A stretch of DNA of 64,000 nt, taken from Collinsella tanakaei. GTDB taxonomy: Bacteria > Actinomycetota > Coriobacteriia > Coriobacteriales > Coriobacteriaceae. Below the pieces are notes generated by a model, which was given only the letters and a program-made list of their open reading frames with translations, did not search any database and was not told the origin of the DNA. Numbering within the stretch: position 1 is the stretch's first letter; each line of letters starts with the position of its first letter. Below, in pieces: positions 18,026-52,680 of this stretch. The stretch is taken from contig NZ_JACJKB010000001.1 of assembly GCF_016900375.1 (NCBI RefSeq), forward strand, positions 1 through 64,000, read 5' to 3'. A program made the translations under genes and the position numbers.

Positions 18026-18052
18026 GCCCATCTGCTTTCATAGCGTTTGCCC

Positions 18053-52202: not shown

Positions 52203-52235
52203 TGTCCACTTTCAGGACGGAGATGAAAACGGACA
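52203..52235 (+). repeat. Repeat A, copy 5
   Basis: TGTCCACTTTCA + GGACGGAGATG + AAAACGGACA. Starts at the base after the priA stop codon. No B copy lies nearby on this side; the next B is at 52417. Confidence 0.88.
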
Positions 52236-52248
52236 TGTAGGGTGGGTT

Positions 52249-52270
52249 CCGAGAATATATATATTCTCGG
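52249..52270. repeat. AT-core palindrome, copy 1
   Basis: A perfect 22-base palindrome, CCGAGAATATA/TATATTCTCGG, 14 bases after A5. See the twin at 52313. Confidence 0.85.
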
Positions 52271-52312
52271 AAGGGTTGGCGATAGAATCCTGCGGAAACT
52301 CTGACGGGCTGC

Positions 52313-52332
52313 CGAGAATATATATATTCTCG
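52313..52332. repeat. AT-core palindrome, copy 2
   Basis: The same 20-base palindrome (CGAGAATATA/TATATTCTCG), centred 63 bases from copy 1. The pair stands in the 478-base priA-def gap, which otherwise holds only A5 and B5. Confidence 0.85.
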
Positions 52333-52416
52333 AATCGGCCTCGCGCAATGGCCGCAAACAGCGCCGTCTTGAACGCGCGGTCTGCCTGCCTGTCGGGCGC
52401 CCTGTCCCTTGGCCTG

Positions 52417-52554
52417 CCTGGCCCCCGGGCGGCGTGGCCTCTCTGGGGACGTAGCCAACAGATGCCATGCTGAGATCTAAATCAAAGAATCGATTCAATC
52501 GCATGGCGCCTGTTGGCTACGTCCCCAGAGAGGCCACGCCGCCCGGGGGCCAGG
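52417..52554. repeat. Repeat B, copy 5, with a long extended stem
   Basis: The stem begins CCTGGCCCCCGGGCGGCG and runs through GTGGCCTCTCTGGGGACG and GTAGCCAACAG to CATGC. The right arm mirrors it, with one or two mismatches near GATGCC/GGCGCC. The ~30-base loop is AT-rich (GATCTAAATCAAAG-like), unlike other copies. It stands between priA and def. Confidence 0.85.
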
Positions 52555-52680
52555 CGAGGGGCAAGCCCACCGAAGGGGCCGGGCTTCCGTACCAAAAAAC
52601 ATGGGTTGCCGACACTGCTGTGGTAGTTGCGGGTAAGATAGTGCAGATGGACTTGTATACAGAAAGGGAGCTGAACACCC

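Follow-up and report, generated by a model that had tools for sequence, protein, structure and literature searches.

The palindrome pair in the priA-def gap

The window (the whole stretch of Collinsella tanakaei DNA that was analysed, 64,000 bp) carries priA and def separated by a gap of 481 bp. The following features were recognised in and around a pair of palindromes in this gap.

52203..52237, + strand: dispersed hairpin repeat TGTCCACTTTCAGGACGG..GGACATG, directly 3' of the priA stop codon, with many genome matches to query positions 2-37
52234..52348, - strand: whole twin-hairpin element, matched by covariance model R1 (97 bits, E 1e-25)
52250..52269, strandless: palindrome 2, the 3' hairpin of the element; perfect arms of 13 bp each reach 52247-52272
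52285..52299, - strand: conserved asymmetric linker GTTTCCGCAGGATTC, identified from the sequence, the copy alignment and the genus-wide pattern
52313..52332, strandless: palindrome 1, the 5' hairpin of the element, CGAGAATATATATATTCTCG, identified by reading the sequence and by genome search
52416..52555, strandless: inverted pair of GTAG-bearing palindromic repeats GGGGACGTAGCC.., with 55-nt arms

The perfect 20-bp palindrome CGAGAATATATATATTCTCG occurs at 52250-52269 and again at 52313-52332, with 63 bp between the centres. The preliminary description, made from the window alone, reported this pair (starting it one base early, at 52249) and considered such repetition unlikely by chance, and the search counts agree. 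When an 18-base shortened form was used with up to three mismatches, the 64-kb window contained these two sites only, compared to a mean of 0.01 matches in 100 dinucleotide shuffles. The whole genome sequence of the strain (2.48 Mb in 87 contigs; hereafter the own genome) contained six exact copies of CGAGAATATATATATTCTCG and 14 with up to three mismatches, while the reversed control gave 0. Most of these sites were paired, 63-64 bp apart, at separate loci. The twin palindromes are far beyond chance.

No match to CGAGAATATATATATTCTCG was found in viral contigs, leaving a phage origin without support. A search of 84,980 species genomes, a set from which neighbours of the own genome are possibly missing, returned no pairs; the only matches were single palindromes on two contigs of one archaeal MAG, which were taken as unrelated. 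Rfam returned no known RNA family at the element, and its matches in the window were four tRNAs only.

Architecture of the twin-hairpin element

Side-by-side reading of the palindrome loci led to the recognition of the linker. The preliminary description was right about the palindromes but had missed the longer element to which they belong (R1 match at 52234-52348), with its conserved asymmetric linker at 52285-52299. The element consists of hairpin 1, a 15-nt linker and hairpin 2, is about 95-115 bp long in total and has its hairpin centres about 64 bp apart. Across the genus the linker consensus is GTTTNNSCAG followed by GATTC or ATAAA. The first linker pattern used, CGTTTNNNCAGNAT, gave only 8 matches, several of them without hairpins.

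Nine copies from the own genome and one from a relative (G008) were combined in an alignment, A1, on which model R1 is based. R1 found nine full copies at separate loci in the own genome with E values of 3e-22 or better, values that are not independent evidence because the scored copies, including that in the window, were used to build the model. In A1 the linker is conserved and 15 of the 29 base pairs show changes on both sides. The covariation score was 0.215, compared to 0.111 for shuffled alignments (0 of 500 as high) and 0.03-0.09 when the partner was slid. Among the six base pairs beyond the tip, 143 of 216 were complementary, compared to 91 ± 7 with shuffled partners (0 of 5000), although this excess is somewhat inflated since palindromes were picked by arm length, which favours pairing. 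The lower stems differ by locus yet remain complementary. Folded as RNA, the window copy has a minimum free energy of -39.1 kcal/mol (z -4.6), and its two palindromes can pair with each other too.

Some partial or related structures were also seen. A degenerate half copy of the element lies at C87:65411. At L200:2638-2747 (G000:C35:59137-59246; L059), the exact linker GTTTCCGCAGGATTC separates two hairpins that lack the AT tip; TTTTTT follows the second of them. At position 18045 (+) of the window, a linker-like sequence, GTTTGCCCAG, stands directly before a GC-rich hairpin, CCCGCCTGCAGGTCATCCCGCAGGCGGGCTT, soon after a TAA codon; this may be chance.

Chance as the source of the pairs is already excluded by the match counts. 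A neutral low-copy repeat with no mechanism of its own, for example one spread by ectopic recombination, would be in keeping with the low copy number and the half copy. With only 0.01 window matches expected, none in the genome control, pairing maintained and a linker conserved across the genus, we regard chance or neutral repetition as a highly improbable account of the element.

Linker, tips and spacing in related genomes

Matches to R1 were present in 13 of 43 genomes of the genus (own genome counted), and the matched relatives retained the linker while their hairpins were different. Searched on its own, the linker pattern matched clearly more often than its reversed control did in the majority of the genus genomes.

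Hairpin tips were alike in nearly all copies within one genome and different between species. Nearly every hairpin of the own genome has the tip GAGAATATA/TATATTCTC or a near variant, compared to TCATTCA/TGAATGA in G017, GGAACATCA/TGATGTTCC in G064, and variants of AGAATATG/CATATTCT plus AGATTC..GAATCT in G008. Genomes of the G058 type have a longer hairpin, ACCTGCCAAAATAAACCTGTCCCTTTTTGGCAGGT, after the linker and often a GC-rich, terminator-like hairpin before it. For copies in which both palindromes were recovered beside the linker, spacing was 63-66 bp in four species; the script misses imperfect palindromes, and distances of 93 and 101, for which it had picked the wrong palindrome, are excluded from this range. 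The six-turn spacing pointed out in the preliminary description is real, being near-constant and kept in four species. Dispersal, paired architecture, near-fixed spacing and linker conservation are thus directly demonstrated.

Presence, absence and genomic position

The priA-def gap is 14-208 bp long in 12 relatives, compared to the 481 bp of the own genome, and none of the 12 has the element there, so the window copy looks like a lineage-specific gain. Of the two expectations attached to the 20-mer, recurrence elsewhere in the genome was borne out at nine paired loci and conservation in the priA-def gap of relatives was not. A conserved regulatory site of priA-def was ruled out by the same 12 gaps.

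A second locus, between genes for a 2-hydroxyacid dehydrogenase and an FMN reductase, has the element in the own genome and in G008; it is absent in G064, G022, G016 and G017. Comparison of the two genomes at this locus shows matching outer stems (CCCCTTCC/GGAAGGGG) and linkers (GTTTTCCCAGATAA) but different tips, as would follow either from a joint turnover of the tips of all copies or from a second use of the site. A MITE of a DDE transposase would have terminal inverted repeats and a target-site duplication. No target duplication was noticed at copies or empty sites, where the intergenic DNA of relatives is too diverged for exact junctions, and no clean insertion junction was seen for the element.

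Copies lie mostly downstream of genes and seldom in promoters, and the neighbouring genes have unrelated functions. Most own copies are between co-directional or convergent genes, and a few, such as C13b, are between divergent ones. At four own loci the edge of the element is 10-32 bp past a stop codon, as placed by a purpose-written, codon-usage ORF caller, which is not a standard gene finder. At the window palindromes, the promoter-like matches are simply the AT cores; most copies, besides, are located downstream of genes. REPs elsewhere also favour sites downstream of genes (PMC3733652).

The preliminary description had suggested a dimeric regulator pair or a partition or nucleoid protein. 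A paired operator or architectural site would hold a dimeric protein on each palindrome, on the same helix face and six turns apart; protein and tip would co-evolve, giving each species its own tip. Consistent with this, spacing stays at 63-66 bp in four species despite different tips, and both sites have the same tip in nearly all copies of one genome. The copies, however, are behind genes of unrelated function, mostly outside promoters, their complementarity runs into locus-specific stems, where a double-stranded site has no need of it, and there are nine pairs only, missing from the same gaps in relatives. Because copies stand behind unrelated genes and the stems stay complementary while changing, a strand-folding repeat fits better than a double-stranded operator. 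The regulator and nucleoid-protein proposals found no support, and we consider a paired operator quite improbable. The tips may be bound by a species-specific protein.

Position behind genes could also point to a twin terminator or 3'-UTR RNA element, i.e. bidirectional terminators or mRNA-stabilising hairpins under selection at gene ends, with the linker as an RNA signal and not a transposase tag. The 10-32 bp distances to stop codons at four own loci, the compensated lower stems, the stable folding predicted for the window copy (z -4.6) and, in several relatives, a hairpin 1 formed by a GC-rich stem and then a T-run are all in line with this. The element resembles bidirectional intrinsic terminators in having two hairpins behind a gene end. 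Unlike them, the window copy has no T-run behind either hairpin, and a search for intrinsic terminators (G+C-rich hairpin with an immediate T-run) called no site there. Tips and linker, moreover, are identical between unrelated loci, an identity that a generic terminator does not need, and the genes on either side of own copy C13b were called as divergent. A terminator or 3'-UTR element is an unlikely explanation, but it is compatible with the transposase-based reading that we prefer (below) and does not exclude it.

Possible association with RAYT-type transposase genes

Four RAYT-like Y1_Tnp genes were present in the own genome, each flanked by other hairpin or repeat families; the twin element was beside none of the four. 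The gene at C1:180469 is flanked by GTAG-bearing GGGGACGTAGCC repeats, the family of the inverted pair at 52416-52555. That at C1:228348 (L183) is flanked by AAGTTTGGGGACAGGTCCCAAACTTTCA, in which there is a motif of the GGGGWSAS type reported from TIRYT repeats, and that at C7:14094 (L184) by ACAAGATGGGGCCAGGT.. repeats. The gene at C24:87278 has a CGTGAAATAAGGCCTGAGG repeat on its upstream side.

In relatives the picture was different for one gene lineage. Inverted linker-plus-hairpin units lie close to an orthologous RAYT gene, on both sides of it, in G063 and G003 (326 aa) and in G018 (a 210-aa fragment). The linker is changed in the downstream G018 unit (ACCCAAATAAA) and in the upstream G003 unit. 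The units beside the RAYT genes are at the same time located behind adjacent genes, at their 3' ends. At the corresponding place G058 lacks the RAYT gene, the gene enclosed by the units has the opposite orientation, and the same stop codon is followed by another hairpin, GGGGACAGG. The comparison of these two close species (G018:C44, L193; G058:C1:895599-897505, L279/L287) thus displays presence and absence of a RAYT gene and inversion of a neighbour gene between hairpin repeats. Against the link, linker copies are about as numerous in relatives that lack the orthologous RAYT.

A RAYT gene bordered by two inverted REPs is the published hallmark (PMC2817692). Judged by sequence layout, the RAYT link appears real, resting on one gene lineage in relatives. 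Compensated stems, presence or absence of the element between relatives, and flanking of this one RAYT lineage by linker-plus-hairpin units are directly demonstrated. In the literature searched, no paper joined Coriobacteriia and RAYT, and nothing relevant was found under the genus name Collinsella.

Comparison with known palindromic repeats

The twin element appears to be a new relative, low in copy number, of the palindromic repeats known from bacteria. With GTAG REPs and REPINs, which are associated with RAYT (TnpA-REP) (PMC3116915, PMC2817692, PMC3733652), it shares a short, palindromic, intergenic, dispersed form, often downstream of genes, a hairpin beside an unpaired conserved motif and, in three relatives, a transposase gene flanked by two inverted units. 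As expected of REPs, its palindromes are dispersed and intergenic, mostly downstream of genes, at nine loci. In contrast to GTAG REPs, its unpaired motif is a 15-nt linker common to two hairpins, its tips are species-specific and its lower stems locus-specific, and no cognate RAYT adjoins it in the own genome. The hairpin feet of the window copy have no GTAG or GTGG, and A1 has no such conserved columns. Canonical REPs usually exceed 100 copies (PMC2817692); the nine full copies of the twin element are below that level.

TIRYT transposases are of the Y1 type; their genes come with longer inverted repeats (TIRs), which likewise occur as dispersed families and in which conserved GGGGWSAS motifs are reported (PMC3733652). 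A similar sequence, GGGACAGG, is present in hairpin 2 of G058-type copies, whereas the twin element of the own genome lacks GGGGWSAS and flanks no transposase gene there. CGTC-tagged REPs have no dedicated transposase known and are described with stems of 8-9 bp, loops of 4-5 nt and a CCA-type tail (PMC3733652), features that the twin element does not retain. They too are palindromic repeats, and at the linker edge some twin copies have GACGTTT, which gives CGTC on the opposite strand, but twin stems are mostly longer and loopless and the linker edge is not constantly CGTC, which places the element outside that class.

A proposed model for spread and function

What the evidence supports best is a REP-type repeat that is dispersed, lineage-specific and strand-folding. 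We think it probable, if far from certain, that it is a low-copy REP-like element that serves as substrate of a RAYT/TIRYT HUH (Y1) transposase and acts as a 3'-end hairpin once placed. Mobilisation by such a transposase is the likeliest mechanism, inferred by analogy and from the flanked genes in relatives; from their position, the hairpins may also serve as structures at RNA 3' ends. The earlier proposal that the palindromes are targets of a site-specific system comes closest to this, if the system is taken to be a Y1 transposase.

In this model the element would be non-autonomous, and the transposase would read single-stranded hairpins beside an unpaired tag, the linker. The element would be moved in trans, now or formerly, into intergenic DNA, often behind stop codons, where the transcribed hairpins might block read-through or protect mRNA. 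The hairpin tip would be the species-specific part, and the lower stems would adapt locally, their complementarity being kept through selection for the fold or through hairpin-templated repair. Against the RAYT reading, the own RAYT genes are not flanked by the element, the GTAG foot is lacking and there are nine copies only. The tip difference between the own genome and G008 at their shared locus is also unexpected under simple vertical descent of a transposed copy.

A more tentative possibility, to which we give limited credence, is a paired-hairpin class that keeps the genus-wide linker and a geometry of about 64 bp. Its tips would turn over together, co-evolving with a putative single-strand-binding protein (RAYT-type or other), and its lower stems would be rebuilt at each site.

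Short palindromic repeats are common in bacteria, yet the manner of their spread and the reasons for their sequence uniformity within a genome are poorly understood. In the twin element the parts are cleanly separated: the linker is genus-wide, the tips are uniform per genome and different per species, and the stems vary by locus but remain paired. This separation makes a reader of the tip, and joint change of the copies, directly testable in related genomes with several RAYT-like enzymes.

Neighbouring repeats

The two other repeats of the priA-def region are separate from the twin element. Genome copies of the TGTCCACTTTCAGGACGG..GGACATG repeat are often in inverted pairs, and no cognate transposase for it was present among the four RAYT loci read. 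The GGGGACGTAGCC GTAG repeats have many genome copies, with members of the family on either side of the RAYT-like gene at G000:C1:180469.
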